Source: Acidovorax sp. sif1233
GTDB taxonomy: Bacteria; Pseudomonadota; Gammaproteobacteria; Burkholderiales; Burkholderiaceae_C
Assembly (NCBI RefSeq): GCF_019218755.1
Contig: NZ_JAHUWZ010000010.1
Location: forward strand, 1-64,000
Direction of reading: 5' to 3'
DNA: 64,000 bases
Below, piece by piece: positions 2,894-57,827 of the stretch (the first letter of the stretch is position 1; each line of letters opens with the position of its first letter). Position numbers and translations under genes: made by a program. The notes beneath the pieces were generated by a model that saw only the letters and a list, made by a program, of their open reading frames with translations, did not search any database and was not told the DNA's origin.

Positions 2894-2904
2894 TTTCACC
2901 AATT

Positions 2905-2965
2905 GCTTCCATTTTGATAGCTTCCAGCGCTTTACCATCAATCGCTGGCGGCCTCCACGGCCTCC
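2905..2965. repeat. Family A palindromic repeat, copy 1
   Basis: It contains TTTTGATAGCTTCCAGCGCT, a short linker, then ATCGCTGG and a GGCCTCC-rich flank. It matches the other family A copies (intact core CCAGCGCTT n7 AAGCGCTGG at 48101-48125). It lies between the ppa stop and the ppa terminator, so it would be transcribed into the ppa mRNA tail. Confidence 0.75.
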
Positions 2966-20420: not shown

Positions 20421-20638
20421 AATGTACCGACACCCCCTGAGCGCCTGCGGCGCTTCCCCCCGGCTCTCGCAACGCTGTGCGTTGCGGGCAGGGGAACGCA
20501 GCCCTCGCCGCGGGGCGGCCCTTGTCCGGCTGCCCTGGCTGGGCCGCGCGTCTTTCACGCCCTGCGATGGCCGTGAAGCGCAATGGATCATCGATGTAAA
20601 ATTTGCCTTCAGCGCTTGATAGATAAGCGCTAGCAGCT
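20421..20638. other. Gap inside the efflux operon: family B and family A repeats
   Basis: The gap between adaptor and first permease holds a family B copy (about 20432-20560) and then a family A copy that runs into the permease start codon. No gene is present. These structures could partly uncouple the permeases from the upstream genes. Confidence 0.65.
20432..20560 (+). repeat. Family B post-stop repeat, copy 1 (subtype with GGGGCGGCCCTTG)
   Basis: It starts 12 bases after the adaptor stop with CACCCCCTGAGCGCCTGCGG, then CTTCCCCC, an internal CGCAACGC/GCGTTGCG hairpin, AGGGGAACGC and GGGGCGGCCCTTG. It shares the last part with the copy at 57888-57992. Confidence 0.7.
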
Positions 20639-20655
20639 ATGAATTCAATAGTAAA
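20604..20655. repeat. Family A palindromic repeat, copy 2
   Basis: Core AGCGCTT (20611-20617), seven bases, AAGCGCT (20625-20631), then AGCAGCTAT running into the start codon of the permease gene, so the repeat supplies the ATG and the first few codons. Confidence 0.85.
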
Positions 20656-21811
20656 CAGCTTTCGCCGCGAGGCCCGCCGCCTGGCGGCCGACCCCTGGGA
20701 CCTGGCCATGGTCACCTGGGTGCCGCTGCTGGCCGTGGCGCTGCTGTGGTGGATTTTCTCGGCCGGCCTGCCGCGCCACCTGCCCGTGGGGGTGGTCGAT
20801 GAGGACCACTCCAGCCTGTCGCGCCAGCTGGTGCGCATGCTCGACGCCACGCCGGGCGTGCGCATCGCGCAGAACCACGCCAACACGGCCGAGGCGGAGC
20901 GCGCGCTGCGCGCCCTCGAGGTCTATGCCGTCGTCACCATCCCGCGCGACTTCGCGCGCACCGTGAAGGAAGGCCGCGCAGCCCAGGTCACGCTGCTGCA
21001 CAACGCGCAGATGGGCACGCATTCGGGCCTGCTGCAGCGCGACGTGCGCGCCGCCGTGGGCACACTGTCGGCGGGCATCGAGATGGCCGCGCGCAACAAG
21101 CGCGGCGAAAGCGCGCAAGCCGTGCGCGTGAGCATGGAGCCCATCCACACGCAGCTGGTGGCGCTGTTCAACGTGTCGAGCAACTACGAGCAGTTCCTGG
21201 GCGCGGCGCTGATCCCCGCGCTGCTGCACATCCTGGCCATGACGGCCGGTGCCTGGACGGTGGGCCGCGAGCTGCGCGACCGCAGCCTGGGCGAGTGGCT
21301 GGGCACGGGCCGTTTCGTCCCTGTCGCAGGCGCCTTGCTGGGCAAGCTCGTGCTGCCCTGGGCCACGCTCACGCTGGTGGGCCTGCTGGCGCTGGCGGGC
21401 ATCACCTGGGGCCGGGGCTGGCACCCGCCGGGCAGCCTGCCCTGGGTGGCCGCCGCGCTGGCGCTGCTGATGGCCGTGTCGGTGGCGGCGGGCGCGGCCC
21501 TGGCGGCCCTCACGCGCTCGCTGCGCACCGCGCTGTCGGGCGCGGGGTTCTTCGCGGCGCCGGCGTTCGCGTTCAGCGGCGTGGCGTTTCCCCTGGCGGG
21601 CATGCCCGCCAGCGCGCGCGCCTGGGCCGAGGCCATGCCGTTCACGCACTACATCCGGCTGCAGATCGAGCAGTTGCAGATGGGCGCGCCGCTGGCCGCC
21701 AGCGTGTCCACCATGGCGGCGCTGCTCATCGCCACCGGCGTGCTCTGGCTCGTGGCCGCCATGGGGCTGAGCCTTGCCGCGGGCCAGCCCGCCAGCTGGG
21801 GAGGCCGCTGA
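20639..21811 (+). CDS. ABC-2-type transporter permease, first of a pair
   Basis: The 390-residue inner-membrane protein has one N-terminal membrane helix (WVPLLAVALLWWIFSAGL), a periplasmic domain of about 150 residues (PVGVVDEDHSSLSRQLVRML) and five or so helices in the C-terminal half, the YhhJ/YbhR architecture. The conserved N-terminal RREARRLAADP lies just after the start. MNSIVN at the N-terminus is encoded by the end of a family A repeat. No nucleotide-binding subunit is encoded next to it. It ends one base before the ATG of its partner permease. Confidence 0.9.
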   Translation: MNSIVNSFRREARRLAADPWDLAMVTWVPLLAVALLWWIFSAGLPRHLPVGVVDEDHSSLSRQLVRMLDATPGVRIAQNHANTAEAERALRALEVYAVVTIPRDFARTVKEGRAAQVTLLHNAQMGTHSGLLQRDVRAAVGTLSAGIEMAARNKRGESAQAVRVSMEPIHTQLVALFNVSSNYEQFLGAALIPALLHILAMTAGAWTVGRELRDRSLGEWLGTGRFVPVAGALLGKLVLPWATLTLVGLLALAGITWGRGWHPPGSLPWVAAALALLMAVSVAAGAALAALTRSLRTALSGAGFFAAPAFAFSGVAFPLAGMPASARAWAEAMPFTHYIRLQIEQLQMGAPLAASVSTMAALLIATGVLWLVAAMGLSLAAGQPASWGGR

Positions 21812-25767: not shown

Positions 25768-26472
25768 ATGACCGACCCCGCCGCCTACCTGCCCGTTCTC
25801 CAGTCCGGCCGCTGGTTTGCCCACCTGCCGCCCGACTTTGCCCAGCCGCTGATCGCCATGGCCCACCTGCGCCAGCTGCAGCCGGGCGAGGTGCTGTTCC
25901 TGCGCGGCGACGCGCCCTGCGGGCTGTACGCGGTGGTGCGCGGGGCCATCAGCATCTCGGGCACGGGCGGGCGGGCGCACGAGGCGCGCGCTGCGCTGCT
26001 CACGCGGCTGGAGCCGCCGCACTGGTTTGGCGAGATCTCGGTGTTCGACGGCTCGGCGCGCACCCACGACGCCCATTCCGCCGAGGCCAGCACGCTGCTG
26101 CAGGTGCCGCACGAACGGCTGCAGGCCTGGCTGCAGGCCCACCCGCAACACTGGCATGCGCTGGCCCTGCTGCTCACCGACAAGCTGCGCACCGCCTTCG
26201 TGGCCATGGAGGAGCTGGCGCTGCTGCCCGCCCCGCAGCGCCTGGCACGCCGCCTGGTGATGATGGCCGAGGGCTACGGCCAGTGGACGGCCGAGGGCCA
26301 GTCGCGCCGCGTGATCGGCATCTCGCAGGAGCAGCTGTCGCTGATGCTGGCCATCTCGCGCCAGACCACCAACCAGATCCTCAAGGACCTGGAGTCGCGC
26401 CACCTGGTGCGCGTGCAGCGTGGCGAGGTGGAGATTTTGGACCTGGCGGCGCTACGGGCCACCTGCTATTGA
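25768..26472 (+). CDS. Crp/Fnr-family transcriptional regulator
   Basis: The 234-residue protein has an N-terminal cyclic-nucleotide-binding-like barrel (QLQPGEVLFLRGDAPCGLYA near residues 36-55, WFGEISVFDG near 91) and a C-terminal winged helix with GISQEQLSLMLAISRQTTNQ near 190-210. It lacks the N-terminal cysteine cluster of Fnr, so direct oxygen sensing by an iron-sulfur cluster is unlikely. The start at 25768 is the ATG nearest the domain start; the open frame upstream is low-complexity. Its stop codon is at the edge of a family A repeat. Confidence 0.92.
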   Translation: MTDPAAYLPVLQSGRWFAHLPPDFAQPLIAMAHLRQLQPGEVLFLRGDAPCGLYAVVRGAISISGTGGRAHEARAALLTRLEPPHWFGEISVFDGSARTHDAHSAEASTLLQVPHERLQAWLQAHPQHWHALALLLTDKLRTAFVAMEELALLPAPQRLARRLVMMAEGYGQWTAEGQSRRVIGISQEQLSLMLAISRQTTNQILKDLESRHLVRVQRGEVEILDLAALRATCY

Positions 26473-26530
26473 ATTACTATTAAATATATAGCAACCAGCG
26501 CTTTACCATCAAGCGCCATAGCCATTTTTC
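26468..26530. repeat. Family A palindromic repeat, copy 3
   Basis: It follows the Crp/Fnr stop directly with ATATAGCAACCAGCGCTTTA, then CATCAAGCGCCATAGCCATT. The core palindrome has decayed on one side. Confidence 0.75.
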
Positions 26531-26576
26531 ATACAAATAGTAAGCACACATTCCATTTCCGGGCAAAATGGTGGCC

Positions 26577-28366: not shown

Positions 28367-28984
28367 ATGCCCCTGAGCCCCCCCGCCCCCCGCACCCTGA
28401 AGCATGTCCGCCGGGTGAACTACCAGGGCTTTGAACGCGACGATGGCCTGTGGGACATCGAGGGCGAGCTGCACGACAGCAAGGCCTACGACGCCCCCTC
28501 GCACCGCGACCCGACGCGCACGCGCCTGGCGGGTGAGGCCATCCACCACATGTGGCTGCGCGTGACCGTGAACCGCCAGCTGGTGGTGCAGGCGGTGGAC
28601 GTGTCCATGGACTCGCATCCGCTCAAAGGCTGCACCGAGGCCCAGGCGGCGCTGCAGCGCATGGTGGGCTGCAGCATGGCGCGCGGCTGGCGCCAGGCCA
28701 TCCAGAAGCACCTGGGCGGCGTGGAAAGCTGCACACACCTGCGCGAACTGCTGTTCAACCTGGCCACGGCGGCCTTCCAGTCGGTGCCCGCGGTGTTTGC
28801 CGCCAGCCACCCCGACGAGCCGCCGCGCCACCTGGGCCAATGCACGGGGTGGGACTTCAACGGCAGCGGCGTGAAGGAATTTTTCCCCCAGTTCCATGGC
28901 CGGGAATCCAAGGCAACCGCCTCGGCCGCCCCGACGGCCCCTGCCACTGAAGTTTCAGCCCCATCGGGCTCTAGCGCTGGTTGA
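28367..28984 (+). CDS. DUF2889 family protein, function unknown
   Basis: The 205-residue cytoplasmic protein matches the DUF2889 family by its N-terminal block (RVNYQGFERDDGLWDIEGEL), the central CTEAQAALQRMVGCSMARGW-like segment with two cysteines and the segment GGVESCTHLRELL. No catalytic role is known. The last residues (SAPSGSSAG) and the stop codon come from a family A repeat, so the tail after about residue 190 is probably not part of the ancestral protein. Confidence 0.85.
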   Translation: MPLSPPAPRTLKHVRRVNYQGFERDDGLWDIEGELHDSKAYDAPSHRDPTRTRLAGEAIHHMWLRVTVNRQLVVQAVDVSMDSHPLKGCTEAQAALQRMVGCSMARGWRQAIQKHLGGVESCTHLRELLFNLATAAFQSVPAVFAASHPDEPPRHLGQCTGWDFNGSGVKEFFPQFHGRESKATASAAPTAPATEVSAPSGSSAG

Positions 28985-29012
28985 ATAAGCGCTGGCAGCT
29001 ATCAATTTTGAT
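28950..29012. repeat. Family A palindromic repeat, copy 4
   Basis: GTTTCAGCCCCATCGGGCTC, then AGCGCTGGTTGAATAAGCGC and TGGCAGCTATCAATTTTGAT. It spans the end of the DUF2889 gene and supplies its stop codon, then runs to within 30 bases of the SDR start. Confidence 0.85.
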
Positions 29013-35791: not shown

Positions 35792-37150
35792 ATGAAAACC
35801 ATTGCCCAGATTGCCGCCGAACTGCAAGGCTACGACCCGCAGGCCCTGAGCGCCGCCGATGTGAACGCGTTTCTGCAGCGGCTGGTCGAGCCCGTGACCG
35901 CCACCGAAGAGCTCCCCCTCTTCGACGCCCTGGGCCGCGTGCTGGCGCGGGACGTCGTCTCGCCCCTCAGCGTGCCCCCGCACGACAACTCGGCGATGGA
36001 CGGTTATGCGTTCGCCGGCGCACAACTCACCCCAGGGCAGCCCCTCACGCTGCGGGTGGTGGGCACGGCGCTGGCGGGCAAGGCCTGGGTGGGCACCGTG
36101 GCGGCGGGCGATTGCGTGAAGATCATGACCGGCGCCATCATGCCCCCGGGCCTGGACACCGTGGTGCCGCAGGAGTTCACCACGGCCGCAGCCGATGATG
36201 GCCACATCACCATCGCGGCCGACGTGCTCAAGACCGGCGACAACCGCCGCTTCAAGGGCGAAGACCTCCTGGAAGGCGGCGTTGCGCTGGCCCAGGGCAC
36301 GCTGCTGGCACCCGCCGCGCTGGGCCTGGTGGCCAGCCTGGGCCTGCCCACGGTGACGGTGTTCCGCCGCCTGCGCGTGGCGTATTTCTCGACCGGCGAC
36401 GAGATCCTGAGCCTGGGCGAAGCCCCACGCGAAGGCGCGGTGTACGACAGCAACCGCTACACCGTCTTCGGCCTGCTCACCCGCCTGGGCGTGGAGGTGA
36501 TCGACCTGGGCGTGGTGCGCGACGAGCCCGCGCTGCTGGAGGCGGCCTTTCGCAACGCGGCACAGCGCGCCGACGCCATCATCACCAGCGGCGGCGTGAG
36601 CGTGGGCGAGGCCGACCACACGCGCACCATGATGAAAAAGCTGGGCGACGTGGCCTTCTGGCGCATCGCCATGCGGCCCGGCCGCCCCATGGCCGCAGGG
36701 AGCATCGCCGCCACGGAATTTGAGGAAAAAACAGCCTCTGGCGCTGATCCAGCAAGCGCCAATAGCTACCAAAATAATAGCAAACAATCCCACAACGGCG
36801 CGGTGCTGTTCGGCTTGCCCGGCAACCCGGTGGCCGTGATGGTGACGTTTCTGGCCTTCGTGCGCCCCGCCCTGCTGCGCATGATGGGCAGCACACACAC
36901 CGCCCCGCCCCTGGTGCGCGCCACCAGCACCGAAGCCCTGCGCAAGAAACCCGGCCGCACCGAGTACCAGCGCGGCACCGTCACCACCGCCGCCGACGGC
37001 ACGCTGCAGGTGCGCACCACGGGCAACCAGGGCTCGGGCGTGCTCAGCTCCATGGTGCAGGCCAACGGGCTCATCGTGCTGCACCACGGCCAGGGCAATG
37101 TGGCGGTGGGCGACACGGTGGATGTGATGCTCTTTGACGGCGTGATCTGA
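35792..37150 (+). CDS. moeA: Molybdopterin molybdotransferase, with repeat-encoded insertion
   Basis: MoeA inserts molybdate into adenylated molybdopterin. The 452-residue product shows PHDNSAMDGYAF near residue 65, GDCVKIMTGAIMPPGLDTVV near 107, STGDEI near 198, the segment SGGVSVGEADHTRTMM near 267, and GLPGNPVAVMVTF near 341. Between MRPGRPMAAGS and the GLPGNP loop there is an extra stretch of about 26 residues (F310 to N335, EEKTASGADPASANSY then QNNSKQSH). It is encoded by a family A repeat in frame. The E. coli enzyme goes almost directly between the two segments. The stretch is polar and probably a surface loop. Confidence 0.95.
   Translation: MKTIAQIAAELQGYDPQALSAADVNAFLQRLVEPVTATEELPLFDALGRVLARDVVSPLSVPPHDNSAMDGYAFAGAQLTPGQPLTLRVVGTALAGKAWVGTVAAGDCVKIMTGAIMPPGLDTVVPQEFTTAAADDGHITIAADVLKTGDNRRFKGEDLLEGGVALAQGTLLAPAALGLVASLGLPTVTVFRRLRVAYFSTGDEILSLGEAPREGAVYDSNRYTVFGLLTRLGVEVIDLGVVRDEPALLEAAFRNAAQRADAIITSGGVSVGEADHTRTMMKKLGDVAFWRIAMRPGRPMAAGSIAATEFEEKTASGADPASANSYQNNSKQSHNGAVLFGLPGNPVAVMVTFLAFVRPALLRMMGSTHTAPPLVRATSTEALRKKPGRTEYQRGTVTTAADGTLQVRTTGNQGSGVLSSMVQANGLIVLHHGQGNVAVGDTVDVMLFDGVI
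36722..36788. repeat. Family A palindromic repeat, copy 5, inside moeA
   Basis: ACAGCCTCTGGCGCTGATCC then AGCAAGCGCCAATAGCTACC and AAAATAATAGC. It corresponds to copy 4 (GGGCTCTAGCGCTGGTTG, AATAAGCGCTGGCAGCTATC) and keeps the reading frame open. Confidence 0.75.
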
Positions 37151-48081: not shown

Positions 48082-48087
48082 TTTCAA

Positions 48088-48140
48088 GCCTTTTCGGGCT
48101 CCAGCGCTTTATAGATAAGCGCTGGCAGCTATTAAATTGT
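48088..48140. repeat. Family A palindromic repeat, copy 6 (best preserved)
   Basis: Perfect nine-base arms CCAGCGCTT at 48101-48109 and AAGCGCTGG at 48117-48125, seven bases between, flanked by CCTTTTCGGGCT on one side and CAGCTATTAAATT on the other. It lies between recR and the MAPEG gene. Confidence 0.9.
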
Positions 48141-48181
48141 GAGTATTCTAGCCGCCGTGGCGCCCTTTTTCCACGCAGGGC

Positions 48182-49486: not shown

Positions 49487-51454
49487 TCACGCAGGCTTGA
49501 TGCTGCCCGGCACGATTCTCGCGCCGTAGTCGCGCATCAGCGATTGCACATAGGGGTCGTTGTTCACGATCTCTTCGGCGCGGCGCTGGCGCTCGGCAGC
49601 GGCGGCCGCATTGCGGCGGGCCGGGCTGTCGATGACATTGCCCACCTCCACACTGATCTGGGTGGCGTGCCCCGCGGCCTCCAGCGCGGCGCGCAGGCGC
49701 TCGCGGGCGGTGGGCTGATTGAGCGACTCGCGCTCCACGCGCAGCAGCCAGTGGCCACCGTCGCGCGCCACCAGCTGCGACTGCAGGGCCAGCTCACGCA
49801 CCAGAGCGGTGATCGATTCCGCAGCCACCATCTGCTGCACGGTGGCATGCCAGACATCGCCCTCCTCGGTGGGCGTGTAGCGCGCGGAAACAGGCGCGGG
49901 GGCCGAAAGCGGCAGCGGTTGCAGCCGCTCCCCGGGTTCGGGCGTCTCGCGCACCGGAATCGCTACGAATTCAGGAGCACCTTGCGCTTGCGGGGACTGC
50001 GCTGGGGGCCGATTTCGCTCAAACCGATCGGACGTGCGCACCGGCAGCGCGGTGGCGGCCGAGGGGGCAGGCGCCGCGGCGCCCGGCTCGTCCGAGCCCG
50101 GCCAGGGAGGTGGCTCGGAGGCATCGGCGGATTCTGGTGAAGGGGCGTCTTGCGCCAACGCCGGGGCCACGGCGGGCTCCGGCGAAGCCGCCGGCACCTG
50201 GGGAGGTGGCGCGGCGGCCAGGGCCGGGGCAACCACGGGTGCCGGCATGGCGGCATCCGCCGCCGCGGGCACCGCGGAAACCGCCGGTGGCGGGCCAGAA
50301 GACGCCGCTTCAGGCCGCGTCAGAGTTTTTTTTTCAGCCGTTTCGCCCGAAGGCTTGAACGCCAGCAAGCGCAGCAGCACCATGGTCAGCGCCGCATACT
50401 CATCGGGCGCCAGGCCCAGTTCGCCGCGCCCGTGCAGGCACAGGCTGTAAAGCAGCTGGGTTTCGTCGGCGGGCATCAGGCCGGCAAGCCGGGCCGTTTC
50501 CACCGCCTCGGGGTCGTCGGCATCCACGGCAGCCGCCATCTGCGGCACGGCCTGGAACACGGCCATGCGCTGCAGCACGGCGCTCATCTCTTCCAGCGTG
50601 GAAGCGGCAGACAGGCCATTGAGGCGCAGCGTGTCCGAGGTTTCCACCACCGTCTTGCCATCGCCCCGGGCCAGCGCGTCGATGAGGCGAAACACGTAGG
50701 AGCGGTCCACCGCGCCCAGCATCTGGCGCACGGCGGCCTCCTGCAGCTGGCCGCTGCCAAAGGCGATGGCCTGGTCGGTGAGCGACAGCGCATCGCGCAT
50801 GGAGCCACGCGCCGCGCGCGAGAGCAGGCGCAGCGCCGGGGGCTCGGCCGGCACGTTCTCCGACGCCAGCACCTGCGTGAGGTGCGACAGCACGGTCTCC
50901 GGCGCCATGGGGCGCAGGTTGAACTGCAGGCAGCGCGAAAGGACGGTGACCGGCACCTTCTGCGGGTCGGTCGTGGCGAGCACGAACTTGAGGTACTCGG
51001 GCGGCTCTTCCAGCGTCTTGAGCATGGCGTTGAACGCCGTGTTCGTGAGCATGTGCACTTCGTCGATCATGAAGACCTTGAAGCGGCCCTGCACCGGCTT
51101 GTAGACGGCCTGTTCCAGCAGGCTCTGCACCTCGTCCACGCCCCGGTTGGAGGCCGCGTCGAGCTCGGTGTAGTCCGGAAACCGGCCACTGTCGATATCG
51201 GTGCAGGCCGCGCACACGCCACACGGCGTGGCGGTGATGCCGCCCTGCCCATCGGGCCCCTGGCAGTTGAGCGACTTGGCCAGGATGCGCGACACCGTCG
51301 TCTTGCCCACGCCCCGCGTCCCGGTGAACAGGTAGGCATGGTGCAGCCGCTGCTGGGTGAGCGCGTTGGTCAGGGCCTGCACCACGTGCTCCTGCCCCAC
51401 CATTTCGGTGAAATTGCGGGGGCGGTACTTGCGGGCGAGCACGAGATAGGACAT
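49487..51454 (-). CDS. dnaX: DNA polymerase III subunits tau and gamma
   Basis: DnaX is the motor of the clamp loader; tau also ties polymerases and helicase together. The 655-residue frame starts MSYLVLARKYRP, has Walker A GTRGVGKTT (residues 45-53), a zinc site near CGVCAAC, Walker B and SRC (LSRCLQF), and domain III to about residue 370. At codons 374-376 the coding strand is GAA AAA AAA ACT, a nine-A run. A slip to the -1 frame gives about five more residues and then TGA, making a gamma-like 381-residue form. The rest of the full frame is a Pro/Ala linker and a tau C-terminal domain. Confidence 0.96.
   Translation of the reverse strand: MSYLVLARKYRPRNFTEMVGQEHVVQALTNALTQQRLHHAYLFTGTRGVGKTTVSRILAKSLNCQGPDGQGGITATPCGVCAACTDIDSGRFPDYTELDAASNRGVDEVQSLLEQAVYKPVQGRFKVFMIDEVHMLTNTAFNAMLKTLEEPPEYLKFVLATTDPQKVPVTVLSRCLQFNLRPMAPETVLSHLTQVLASENVPAEPPALRLLSRAARGSMRDALSLTDQAIAFGSGQLQEAAVRQMLGAVDRSYVFRLIDALARGDGKTVVETSDTLRLNGLSAASTLEEMSAVLQRMAVFQAVPQMAAAVDADDPEAVETARLAGLMPADETQLLYSLCLHGRGELGLAPDEYAALTMVLLRLLAFKPSGETAEKKTLTRPEAASSGPPPAVSAVPAAADAAMPAPVVAPALAAAPPPQVPAASPEPAVAPALAQDAPSPESADASEPPPWPGSDEPGAAAPAPSAATALPVRTSDRFERNRPPAQSPQAQGAPEFVAIPVRETPEPGERLQPLPLSAPAPVSARYTPTEEGDVWHATVQQMVAAESITALVRELALQSQLVARDGGHWLLRVERESLNQPTARERLRAALEAAGHATQISVEVGNVIDSPARRNAAAAAERQRRAEEIVNNDPYVQSLMRDYGARIVPGSIKPA
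50326..50334 (-). other. Slippery A9 run in dnaX (programmed frameshift or transcript slippage site)
   Basis: Nine A residues on the coding strand in the phase A AAA AAA, as at dnaX frameshift sites. After a -1 shift the frame reads N S D A A and stops at TGA. A GACGC/GCGTC inverted repeat lies a few bases downstream and could act as a weak stimulator. Confidence 0.7.
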
Positions 51455-51681: not shown

Positions 51682-51777
51682 TGACGGGCCTCCCCGCATG
51701 GTGAAGCGGCCAACCGGGTCAGGTGGGGAACCAAGCAGCCCTAACTGTGGAGTCAGTGCCGGGGGTAAGGCTCGTCA
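51682..51777 (+). ncRNA. ffs: Signal recognition particle RNA (4.5S, small bacterial type)
   Basis: The 96-base gene has the universal SRP domain IV core GTCAGGTGGGGAACCAAGCA followed by GCC, in which the conserved internal loops that bind Ffh are visible. The ends pair (TGACGGGCCT with AGGCTCGTCA, one mismatch), closing a single long hairpin. It lies upstream of and divergent from dnaX, a common location in beta- and gammaproteobacteria. Confidence 0.92.
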
Positions 51778-52028
51778 ACTTCTCTTTTGTTGCCTGCGCG
51801 GCGTGCCCGCGAGCGGCATTCCTGGCGCGGTGTTGTCGCGCATCCCCTCCCCCACCCCGTTCGCCTTCGTGGCATGTGCTGGCTGCCTCCAGCGCGCACA
51901 GGCACGCGGCGCGAGCGCATGTCAGTCCTTTCCCACGCTGTTTTGCGGCTTTCGGGATTGCGCCGCCCCGGGCGGCAGGCGCACACTTTGTTGCATCGCT
52001 TCATCCTTTCTTTTCATCGGGTGCCGCC

Positions 52029-54329: not shown

Positions 54330-57300
54330 TCAGAACAGGGAACCCTGGGGCGAATCGTCGGGGCCGGGTCCCCGCGGCAGGGGCAGCGGCGGCGGCACGG
54401 CCCCGGGTTCCTGCGCGGCGGGGGCGAGAGTATGCCGCAGCGCGGCCTCTGCGCCCTGCACTGCATCGGGCCCGGCAGGCACGGCGTCGGGCACGGGCAC
54501 GAGGCGCCCGTCGCCCGTGAGGAAGGCCGCGCGCACGCGCTCGCCGGGCGTCTGCCCCTGCACGGCGCTGCGGTAGCGCTGCAGCTGGGCCAGCAGCGCG
54601 GGCTGGCGCTCGGGCTCGGCCGCGCTCTTGTAGTCCAGCACCCACCACCCGGCGCGTTCGGGCGGCTGGTGGCAATGCACCAGGCGGTCCAGCCGCAGGC
54701 TCAGGCCCTGGTAGCGCAAGGGCGCCTCGTTGATGGCGGTGTCCACGGCCGACGCCTCCCAGGCCCAGGCGCCTTCGCCCGCCAGGATGCGCTGCGCGGT
54801 CAGCGCGGCGTGCCGCGCGGCCGCGATGGTGATGTCGAAATCCCGCGCCAGCCGCGCCACCCGCGCGGGCGGCCAGCCCTGGGCGCGCAGCTCCACCAGC
54901 GGGGCCCCCGCCACGCCCGCCTGCTCCAGCAGCTGGTGCATGGCCTCGCCCAGCCGGGACTGCGGCGTGGAGGCAGCCGTGGCATCGCCGGGGTCGGCGG
55001 CCCGGTCGGCATCCACCGGCCCCGCGGCGGGTGCCGCGCGCAGGTGCTCCGGCAGCGGCGGCAGCTCCGCCAGCATGAAGTGATCGTGGCGGCCCGGCCC
55101 GGCCAGGGCTTCGCCCCCGGGCGCGCCAGGGCCCTCCTGCACGGCGATCTCGGCCGCCAGCGGCGCCAGGCGGTTCCACCAGCTGCCCGGCGCGGATGCG
55201 GCCGGCTGCACGCTGGACAGCGCCAGGCAGTGCTTGGCCCGCGTCATCGCCACGTAGAGCATGTTCAGCTCTTCGCGCTGGCGGGCCTGCTGCTCGGCGG
55301 CCAGCACTTCCACGGCGCTGGGCGGCGGGTTCGATTCGCTGGCCAGGAAGACGAAGGCCCTGGGCACGGCCTGCTCGCCGGGCCAGTCCACCAGCACGCC
55401 CATGGTCTCGGCCTTCTGGGGGCGGGTGTCGGTGTCCAGCAGCAGCACGCAGCGCGCCTCCAGCCCCTTGGCGCCGTGCACGGTGAGCAGGCGCACCGCC
55501 TGCGCATCCACCCGGCCCGGCGCGCGCACGCCGCCCTTTTTCATGGCACGCACAAAGGCATAGGGCGTGAGATAGCGGCCGCCGTCGTGCTGCAGCGCGG
55601 CCGACAGCAAGGCGCGCAGATTGGCCTGCACCGCGGTGCGCTGCGCGGCGGGGGCGGCCGCCGCGAAGCGCGCCAGCACATCGGCGTGCTGGTAGATGGC
55701 GTGCAGCGCGTCGTGCGGGGGCAGGCCATCCACCCAGGCTCTGTATTGAGCCAAAACGGGCCCCAGCGCTTTCATTTCAAGCGGTAGCAGCTCACTTTTC
55801 TGTAGCAAATCAAACCAGCTGCAGGCAGCGTGTTCCGGCTGGCGGCGCAGCAGCGCCAGGGTCACCAGGGCCTCGTCGCCGCAGCCAAACAGGGGCGAGC
55901 GGAGTGCCCGAGCCAGGGAAAGGTCGTGCCCGGTGGACACCAGCGCATCGAGCAGCGCCACGATGTCCTGCACCTCGGGTGCGTCGAACAGGTCGGCCTT
56001 CTCGGGCTGCACGCAGGGCAGGTGCAGGGCGCGCAGGGCTTCCTGCAGGGCGGCGAGCCGGTCGCGCTTGCGGGCCAGCACCAGCACTTCGTGGGGCGGC
56101 GTGCCCTGCGCGATCTGCGCCGCCACCCACGCGGCGGCCTGTGTGCATTCGCGCATGCGCTGGGTTTCCTCGGCCTCGTGGCGGGGCTCGGTCAGGCTGT
56201 CGCGCCAGGCGAAAGGGTCCGCGCCCGCGCCGCCGCTGCCGCCGGCATCCGGCGGCAGGATGGCGGGCAGGCGCAGCAGCACGCCGGGGTCCCTGGACTC
56301 GGTGGTGTGGTCGCGAAAGCCGCTGGTCTCGTGCTGCGCCTGGGCGGTGCCCATGACGTGGTTCACGGCGGCGATCACGCCCGTGGCGTTGCGGCGCGTG
56401 TGGTCGCAGCTGAGCAGGTCGCCCGCGAGCCCGTGGCGCACGAAGGCCTGCGCGGCGATGAACACCTGTGGCTCGGCGCGGCGAAAACGGTAGATGCTCT
56501 GCTTGGGGTCGCCCACGATGAATACGCTGGGCGGCGTCTGGCCGCTGGCGCCACCGCCCGAACCCGCATAGCCCGACAGCCAGGCGTGCAGCGCCTGCCA
56601 CTGCAGCGGGTTGGTGTCCTGGAACTCGTCGACCAGCAGGTGGCGCACGCGCGCATCGAGCCGCTCCTGCACCCACCCCGAGAGGATGGGATCGGACAGC
56701 ATGACCAGCGCCGTGCGCTCCACGTCGTTCATGTCCACCCAGCCGTGCCGGTTCTTCACGGCGGCAAATTCGCCGATCAGGCAGCGTGCCAGGCGGGCCA
56801 TGCGCTGCTGGTGCTGCCAGGCCTCGTGCTGGCGCCGCGCCAGCAGCAGGCGCTGCAGCTCGGGCTCGGCTTCCTGGGCGGCTGCGAACTTCTCGAGGTT
56901 CTTGGACAGCCGGTCTTCCTTGGCCACGAACATCGCCTTGCGCAGCAGGTCCAGGCGCAGGTTCGGGTCGCCGCAGGCCAATGCGTCCACGATGGCGTCC
57001 GCCGCCTTCTGGGGCGTCTTGTTGGTCTCGGCCCCCAGCGCCCTGGCGCGCGCCAGCCAGCGCTGGTGGCAGGCATCGCCCTGCAGCGCGCCGGCGGGCT
57101 CATCCAGTCCCGCCAGTTCCGGGCAGTGCGCCTGAAAGGAAGGCACCGAGGCATCGAGCACGCCCGCCGCGTCGGCCAGGTCGAATTCCACGCGCTTGGC
57201 CAGCGCCGCCGCCAGCGCCTTGTGGGTCTGCGAGCGGCCGTGGCGGGCCACCACGGCCTCGTAGTCGGCCCGCAGGCCGGCGCTGGTGGCCACGGTGTGC

Positions 57301-57827
57301 AGGAACGGGGCCCACACCTCGCGCACGGCTTCGGCATCGTCTTCGAGCAGTTCGAAGTTGGCCGGCAGGCCCTGCGCCTGCAGCAGCGCCAGCGGGGCCG
57401 TGCCCAGCAGCGCGGCAAACCAGCTGTGGAAGGTGCGGATCTGCACCGGGCGGCCGCTGGCCAGCATCTGGCGGTATAAATTTTGTAGCGCCTCGCGCTT
57501 GTCCAGAGCGCGCTCGGGGCTGATTCCTCTGGCAACCAGCTCGCGGGTGAGGTCCTCCAGGGGGGCCTGGGCAAAGGCTTCGAGCCATTCCTGCAGGCGC
57601 TGGCGCATTTCACCGGCCGCTTTCTTGGTGAAGGTGATGGCCAGGATCTCGTGCGGCGCGGCGCCATCGAGCAAGGCACGCAGCATGCGCGACACCAGCA
57701 TCCAGGTCTTGCCCGCGCCCGCGCAGGCCTCCACGGCCACGCTGCGCGCCGGGTCGCAGGCGATGGCGTAGAAGGCCTCGCGGGAGACGGGACGGCCGTT
57801 GTGTTCGTAGGCGGCTTGTTCAGTCAT
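54330..57827 (-). CDS. addA: UvrD-type helicase-nuclease, AddA-like
   Basis: AddA with AddB processes double-strand DNA ends for recombination. The 1165-residue protein has Walker A VEACAGAGKT near residue 33, AITFTKKAAGEMRQRL, RTFHSWF, the DEFQDTNPLQW Walker B near 400, GDPKQSIYRFRRAE, LTVHGAKGLE near 790 and MLYVAMTRAKHCL, then a C-terminal RecB-like nuclease with VLDYKSA. Residues about 672-694 (LLQKSELLPLEMKALGPVLA) are encoded by a family A repeat in frame. The start is the ATG at 57827. Confidence 0.9.
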   Translation of the reverse strand: MTEQAAYEHNGRPVSREAFYAIACDPARSVAVEACAGAGKTWMLVSRMLRALLDGAAPHEILAITFTKKAAGEMRQRLQEWLEAFAQAPLEDLTRELVARGISPERALDKREALQNLYRQMLASGRPVQIRTFHSWFAALLGTAPLALLQAQGLPANFELLEDDAEAVREVWAPFLHTVATSAGLRADYEAVVARHGRSQTHKALAAALAKRVEFDLADAAGVLDASVPSFQAHCPELAGLDEPAGALQGDACHQRWLARARALGAETNKTPQKAADAIVDALACGDPNLRLDLLRKAMFVAKEDRLSKNLEKFAAAQEAEPELQRLLLARRQHEAWQHQQRMARLARCLIGEFAAVKNRHGWVDMNDVERTALVMLSDPILSGWVQERLDARVRHLLVDEFQDTNPLQWQALHAWLSGYAGSGGGASGQTPPSVFIVGDPKQSIYRFRRAEPQVFIAAQAFVRHGLAGDLLSCDHTRRNATGVIAAVNHVMGTAQAQHETSGFRDHTTESRDPGVLLRLPAILPPDAGGSGGAGADPFAWRDSLTEPRHEAEETQRMRECTQAAAWVAAQIAQGTPPHEVLVLARKRDRLAALQEALRALHLPCVQPEKADLFDAPEVQDIVALLDALVSTGHDLSLARALRSPLFGCGDEALVTLALLRRQPEHAACSWFDLLQKSELLPLEMKALGPVLAQYRAWVDGLPPHDALHAIYQHADVLARFAAAAPAAQRTAVQANLRALLSAALQHDGGRYLTPYAFVRAMKKGGVRAPGRVDAQAVRLLTVHGAKGLEARCVLLLDTDTRPQKAETMGVLVDWPGEQAVPRAFVFLASESNPPPSAVEVLAAEQQARQREELNMLYVAMTRAKHCLALSSVQPAASAPGSWWNRLAPLAAEIAVQEGPGAPGGEALAGPGRHDHFMLAELPPLPEHLRAAPAAGPVDADRAADPGDATAASTPQSRLGEAMHQLLEQAGVAGAPLVELRAQGWPPARVARLARDFDITIAAARHAALTAQRILAGEGAWAWEASAVDTAINEAPLRYQGLSLRLDRLVHCHQPPERAGWWVLDYKSAAEPERQPALLAQLQRYRSAVQGQTPGERVRAAFLTGDGRLVPVPDAVPAGPDAVQGAEAALRHTLAPAAQEPGAVPPPLPLPRGPGPDDSPQGSLF
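55748..55812. repeat. Family A palindromic repeat, copy 7, inside addA
   Basis: Plus strand CAAAACGGGCCCCAGCGCTT, TCATTTCAAGCGGTAGCAGC and TCACTTTTCTGTAGC. It aligns with copy 6 (GGGCTCCAGCGCTT, AAGCGCTGGCAGCT) and leaves the addA frame open. Confidence 0.75.

Follow-up and report, generated by a model that had tools for sequence, protein, structure and literature searches.

A repeated motif of about 70 bp, one copy of which lies in frame in the moeA gene of Acidovorax sp. sif1233, reads as a recognition motif of defined sequence whose copies evolve in concert, as those of the neisserial DUS do. We consider it moderately probable that the motif is a sequence-specific DNA-uptake signal of natural transformation, where uptake itself is what we infer. 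In this study, we analysed a stretch of 64,000 nucleotides (the window) of the host genome, which has 5.76 Mb and 69% GC. The features of the window are collected in Table 1. The Pfam domains MoeA_N, MoCF_biosynth and MoeA_C each scored above cut-off in the moeA reading frame, a PDB search matched the 452-aa protein to E. coli MoeA (E 1e-102), and its identity to named Acidovorax MoeA proteins was 82-90%. The peptide EFEEKTASGADPASANSYQNNSKQ lies between the segments MRPGRPMAAG and GLPGNP. The moeA repeat copy is real and far beyond chance: it matched the model with 70.8 bits and scored 89 bits with a matrix trained without coding copies, against about 25 bits for the best chance match. An earlier note had claimed that a copy sits in frame and stop-free within this working enzyme and that its repeat family also fills non-coding gaps. 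Both claims were confirmed.

Table 1. Features of the window and evidence for them (blocks 1-5 belong to the moeA copy)
Feature	Position	Strand	Evidence and remarks
moeA (molybdopterin molybdenumtransferase), host gene of motif copy	35792..37150	+	452 aa; ORF and Pfam
Motif copy in moeA	36716..36787	+	In frame, stop-free; 72 of 74 model positions; encodes EFEEKTASGADPASANSYQNNSKQ
Conserved block 1	36734..36738	+	GCCTC; motif columns 20-24; column conservation, 124 non-coding copies
Conserved block 2	36741..36746	+	Consensus GCGCTT, here GCGCTG; last base is a dialect position
Conserved block 3	36754..36759	+	AAGCGC; ATGCGC or ATGCCT in the other dialect
Conserved block 4	36764..36769	+	Consensus AGCTAT, here AGCTAC; common to both dialects
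Conserved block 5	36777..36781	+	ATAGC; column conservation, 124 non-coding copies
Motif copy, not in coding frame	2901..2954	-	37.3 bits and coding test
Motif copy just upstream of a gene	20596..20657	+	38.6 bits and coding test
Motif copy at gene 3' end	26472..26532	-	35.4 bits and coding test
Motif copy between two genes	28961..29008	+	34.1 bits and coding test
Motif copy upstream of minus-strand gene	48082..48148	+	37 bits and coding test
Motif copy within minus-strand open frame	49963..50025	-	25.2 / 36.9 bits; upstream coding score only 0.04
Motif copy in frame in minus-strand UvrD-type helicase gene	55744..55792	+	ELLPLEMKALGPVLAQ; 25.6 bits (R1 model), 47.9 (trained matrix); coding on both sides; host gene with UvrD-helicase N-terminal domain
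Weak candidate copy, in frame, same UvrD-type helicase gene	57474..57530	-	21 / 29.9 bits; near noise limit

The claim that the repeat adds a peptide to MoeA also held when motif-free relatives were compared. The hairpin loop was longer by about 25 residues, and the stretch from MRPGRPMA to GLPGNP measured 39 residues here and 10-18 in motif-free Comamonadaceae. E. coli MoeA has 2 residues at the place where the 452-aa protein has 31. We surveyed the loop in 81 sequences, namely this protein and 80 further MoeA genes. Contrary to the expectation that most relatives would lack the insert, 56 of the 81 sequences had long loops of 24-62 residues, in Acidovorax, Polaromonas and Rhodoferax. The other 25, with loops of 10-18 residues, came mainly from Curvibacter, Hydrogenophaga, Hylemonella and one Acidovorax subclade. 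With one clear exception, Hydrogenophaga L070, nearly all long loops contained a recognisable motif (up to 103 bits). When the loop was left out of the tree, the long and short states needed 9 changes, at least 4 of them forced by strong branches. The MoeA insert is old, and an early gain followed by losses fits as well as a few gains do. In an AlphaFold model of moderate quality (mean pLDDT 73.6), residues 311-333 had pLDDT below 50 and formed the tip of a hairpin between strands 299-306 and 336-341. In moeA, GC3 was 0.38 in the motif versus 0.87 outside it. The loop peptide is probably a tolerated, disordered by-product. As a separate observation, the loop of L070, a Hydrogenophaga MAG, lacks the motif but appears by eye to hold, in reverse orientation, the GC-rich palindrome of about 84 nt described below, so that the same hairpin tip would have received two unrelated repeats.

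The motif has about 26 strongly conserved positions arranged in several blocks. BLAST with the moeA repeat gave 40 matches in its own genome, and a profile search gave at least 150 copies, all of at least 43.9 bits. With a matrix trained on the 124 non-coding copies, 64 copies of at least 25 bits were found in 464 kb versus 2 in the reversed sequence, which implies roughly 700-800 copies in the genome. The exact motif GCGCTT-N7-AAGCGC-N4-AGCTAT was over-represented in both orientations (80 forward and 76 reverse, control 0). Its counts ranged from 0 to 360 per genome among 47 Acidovorax genomes, and it was present in 9 of 61 sampled Burkholderiaceae genera. A loose regular-expression scan of the window was rejected, since chance matches in it were far too numerous. 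The copies were biased to the core genome, as expected of DUS/USS. Density on Acidovorax chromosomes was about 10.5-13 per 100 kb, and an Acidovorax plasmid had 2 copies per 100 kb versus 12.5 on the chromosome. A low-GC stretch of 200 kb in genome G037 had 3 copies, and the 200 kb preceding it had 28. Motif matches occurred in 4 of 72,556 plasmid records and were few on viral contigs (74 stretches). Among the copies of one genome, the 7-nt loop in motif columns 33-39 was either ATCCATC or its reverse complement GATGGAT, which suggests loop inversion. The window also holds a bacterial small SRP RNA (RF00169) at 51683-51779 on the plus strand, with 61.8 bits.

Copies inside genes were common. 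Among the 130 strongest copies, 5 were genic and in frame, in MoeA, a MacB-type ABC protein, DnaE2, a sugar ABC ATPase and an HI0933-type flavoprotein (YhiN). In the unbiased 464-kb sample, 16 of 64 copies, about a quarter, were in frame and flanked on either side by coding signal, although the weakest few of the 16 could be chance because two are expected at the threshold. The in-frame hosts in this sample included an APH/SrkA-type kinase, MurD, DapF, CobS, the tRNA nucleotidyltransferase (Cca) and an RlmI-type methyltransferase. The genic copies used several reading frames and both orientations, and they were in frame and stop-free within unrelated proteins, as Rickettsia palindromic elements (RPE) are. 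MoeA is about 25 aa longer with the motif, but MurD and DapF showed no added length. In nearly every complete orthologue, the MurD stretch from SPGL to ITGTNGKTT was 43 residues long, both with the motif (up to 69 bits) and without it (10-15 bits). The DapF stretch was 44 residues in most motif-bearing genera versus about 38-46 in most motif-free ones, and the ancestral WPLAL...VAVxSMGNPHAV was still visible beneath the motif. An exception was the DapF of one genus (G062), which had a longer version at a different register. Copies can thus arise in place, within coding sequence that already exists and without lengthening of the protein.

The motif was conserved at the level of DNA, despite sitting in permissive places, as in DUS/USS. 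In DnaE2 from 30 genomes, GC3 was 0.28 in the motif versus 0.87 in the flanks, and A/T-ending codons conserved to at least 90% made up 10 of 20 motif columns versus 1 of 159 flank columns. In YhiN, whose GC3 outside the motif was 0.85, the motif contained the invariant codons TAT (29/29), CAA (27/27) and GAT (27/27), and AGC was also invariant. In non-coding copies compared between strains, 1.7% of positions in conserved columns and 6.0% of those in variable columns were changed, where the change in flanks, which include genes, was 1.7%. Between species, identity was 90% in conserved columns versus 54% in variable columns. No covariation of the inverted-repeat arms was found over the 124 non-coding copies. 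Because the arms do not covary, it is the sequence and not a hairpin structure that is kept. No Rfam model matched the motif either, and a structured RNA was rejected on these two grounds. A terminator was rejected as the main role because genic copies occur in both orientations.

The sites were stable between strains and species. In about 210 kb aligned with a same-species genome, 33 of 33 copies in alignable regions were common to both. Against G011 (85% identity), 10 of 10 mappable copies were kept, some of them partly deleted in one species. Against G005 (83% identity), 11 of 11 alignable copies were kept, 10 of them in the same orientation. No presence/absence polymorphism of copies was found at these 33, 10 and 11 sites. 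The motif family shows no recent transposition and is not mobile at present. The earlier note had likened the repeat to the mobile palindromes of Rickettsia. The part of this comparison that stands is the in-frame peptide added to MoeA. That it is a mobile palindrome of this kind is wrong or unsupported, given the shared sites (33/33 and 11/11), the scarcity of copies on a plasmid and in a low-GC island, the in-place gain in MurD and DapF, the lack of arm covariation and a G005 dialect that has lost the palindrome.

We compared the motif in depth in two dialects. G005 had only 16 exact motifs of the type found in the genome of moeA (G000), but a matrix retrained on G005 itself found 56 copies in 400 kb of G005 and 0 in the reversed control, a density equal to that in G000. 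These copies read AGCGCTAGT-NNN-ATATGC...; they keep the A/T-rich parts and TAGCTAT but are no longer palindromic. G005 has GCGCTAGT...ATATGC where G000 has GCGCTTAT...CAAGCGC. At 11 orthologous sites, all 11 G005 copies differed from G000 at the diagnostic positions, and 8 of the 11 had the full 'AGT' signature. The species dialect thus holds genome-wide (G000 versus G005), as in DUS/USS, and hundreds of unlinked sites, including protein-coding ones, have changed in step. The G005-type signature was also found in the DnaE2 and YhiN copies of G005, G018 and G034, and in the motif copy in MoeA of A. delafieldii. With few copies seen in each, the signature was of the G000 type in A. temperans and of the G005 type in A. 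delafieldii DSM 64. Dialects correlated between genes with a Spearman coefficient of 0.60, phylogeny not being corrected for. A possible third dialect, ACAGGCCTTTGCGCGC.ACAGATA, was seen in DnaE2 of G010, G023, G029, G032 and G035 (L291, L292, L294, L295 and L312).

Neisserial DUS are biased to the core genome, lie in permissive places, are highly conserved (PMC2397512) and have dialects (PMC3630211). We favour an uptake signal because the DNA-level conservation, core bias, permissive sites, in-place gain and dialects of the motif match those of neisserial DUS. Motif-bearing DNA would be preferentially taken up and then recombined, by which copies would spread to permissive places and stay close to the consensus. 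The copies would also follow any change in the specificity of the receptor, leading to a dialect switch. In MoeA, a tolerant beta hairpin would have gained about 66-75 nt of motif-carrying DNA at its tip, either once, ahead of the split of Acidovorax, Rhodoferax and Polaromonas, or a few times, with later losses in some lineages. Natural transformation has been reported for A. temperans and A. facilis, in A. temperans by DNA of its own species only. DNA of A. delafieldii was ineffective in transforming A. temperans and no signal was known, and sequence-specific uptake was suspected in the sister genus Verminephrobacter with no sequence named (PMC4212676). This species restriction, an independent result, fits the uptake reading. 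That reading is weakened by the length of the motif, far above the 9-12 bp of known uptake sequences, and by the MoeA copy, which came with extra length, unlike those in MurD and DapF. It is also weakened because another genome-wide DNA-binding factor or conversion between copies would give much of this picture. ComEC was detected in 9 of 9 sampled motif-bearing genera and also in most motif-free genera. We rejected it as a discriminator of motif genera, as it is present nearly everywhere. In G050, ComEC lies in three frames (C1:1836740-1837544; broken or sequencing errors), and its genus has 29 exact motifs. Motif decay after loss of competence may fit this case, or an assembly error.

The main rival is a binding site of another chromosome-wide factor (nucleoid, segregation, replication or repair), with site and protein evolving together, where selection on the site, not uptake, would keep the copies and drive the dialect switch. 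It would account for the DNA-level conservation, the stable sites, the chromosome bias, the lack of covariation and the dialects. However, about 700 long-lived sites, some of them in MurD, DapF, Cca and MoeA, are more than such a factor usually needs, no candidate protein came to light, and the species-specific transformation of the genus (PMC4212676) is left unexplained. We regard a binding factor as unlikely. An old, immobile and functionless repeat family homogenised by ectopic gene conversion is a still weaker candidate. A dialect could spread through conversion, which could also keep copies similar, and recombination is the presumed origin of DUS themselves (PMC2397512). However, conversion free of selection should homogenise loops and flanks too, and these vary while the blocks are fixed, as the rates of change given above for blocks and variable columns show between strains and between species. 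Conversion tracts would also disrupt essential enzymes.

A mobile palindromic element (RPE-like or MITE) that inserted in frame and was tolerated in surface loops ranks last and is largely refuted, so that we hold it to be very improbable. Several proteins with in-frame, stop-free copies, the net gain of about 25 residues in MoeA and the inverted-repeat consensus would suit such an element. These points are outweighed by the absence of presence/absence polymorphism, both in the 33 shared copies and against G011 and G005, by the in-place gain of the motif in MurD and DapF, and by the non-palindromic G005 dialect. The silent-site conservation and the sparse copies on plasmid, island and viral contigs also speak against it. 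A RAYT/Y1 transposase was rejected as the mobiliser, because Y1_Tnp, found in 48 of 61 genera, occurs with or without the motif and no motif copies flank the single Y1_Tnp gene of the moeA-bearing genome.

We also compared the motif with known systems. The motif resembles Neisseriaceae DUS in its hundreds to thousands of copies on both strands, in intergenic and intragenic positions, in its core bias and in its species dialects (PMC2397512, PMC3630211). DUS are 10-12-mers, whereas the motif is about 70 bp long, has its roughly 26 conserved positions spread over several blocks, belongs to Comamonadaceae and has a putative uptake role. As it is no short contiguous signal of 9-12 bp, it would be at most a variant of DUS/USS. 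Like Pasteurellaceae USS, it combines a short core with A/T-rich positions and can stand within reading frames in either orientation (PMC2346458), but it differs from USS in sequence and family, in the one palindromic core of the G000 dialect and in a role in uptake that is only presumed. It shares with RPE a palindromic repeat that lies in frame within unrelated proteins and adds a peptide (in MoeA). RPE are inserted elements of about 150 bp (PMC10969869), whereas the motif occupies the same sites across strains and species, showed in-place gain in MurD and DapF, and has a palindrome that is dispensable in another dialect. Neither recent presence/absence between relatives nor a conserved palindrome, both typical of RPE, was seen. 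REP/RAYT systems are likewise short palindromic repeats of high copy number, but the motif copies do not flank a Y1_Tnp gene.

A scan from 2017 listed the spaced motifs GCTTAT(N)5AAGCG in Acidovorax ebreus (114 copies, 5 in genes) and ATAGCT(N)22CAAAAG in Polaromonas naphthalenivorans (125 copies, 18 in genes), both often near gene ends and unexplained (PMC5217627). Both appear to be the same repeat as the moeA motif. The scan is silent on peptides in proteins, conservation of silent sites, gain in place, dialects and any tie to transformation. Among the open-access papers searched, we found none that ties the motif to proteins, dialects or transformation. A paper on GTAG/CGTC REP families does not mention the motif-bearing genera, and the genome paper of Rhodoferax ferrireducens was rejected as a source, since 'palindromic' there means CRISPR.

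We see about an even chance that the Comamonadaceae possess an uptake-signal system of their own. Neisseriaceae and Pasteurellaceae would then be joined by a third lineage, whose unusually long (about 70 bp), multi-block signal has species dialects, has entered perhaps 150-200 proteins in each genome in frame (such as MoeA, MurD, DapF and tRNA nucleotidyltransferase) and explains the species barrier to transformation of Acidovorax. If true, it would extend uptake signals to a family for which we found none described and would provide a concrete sequence for testing the own-species-only transformation of Acidovorax. Two dialects in sister species would then offer a route to the co-evolving receptor. 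A DNA-level signal would also be shown to remodel loops in hundreds of proteins, essential enzymes included, while mimicking a protein-invading palindrome of the RPE type. For RPE-like repeats, in-place gain, silent-site conservation and dialects should be checked before they are called mobile.

A GC-rich palindromic repeat of about 84 nt, distinct from the motif, was also observed (GGGCCGCCCCAAG...GGGGGGCAGCGA...GGGGAGCGTGGGGG). In G037 it occurs at L335:17420-17630 and L335:19560-19770, and it is absent from the corresponding places in G000 (C11, about 193.15 and 195.22 kb). In G037 the repeat lies in frame and lengthens two proteins by about 28 residues, one biotin-carboxylase-like and the other acyl-CoA-dehydrogenase-like (named by eye). 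G000 has a copy at about C11 339717-339788, where an alignment break ends and G037 is without one. Of the two repeats, this GC-rich one makes the stronger case for a true mobile palindrome like the RPE.
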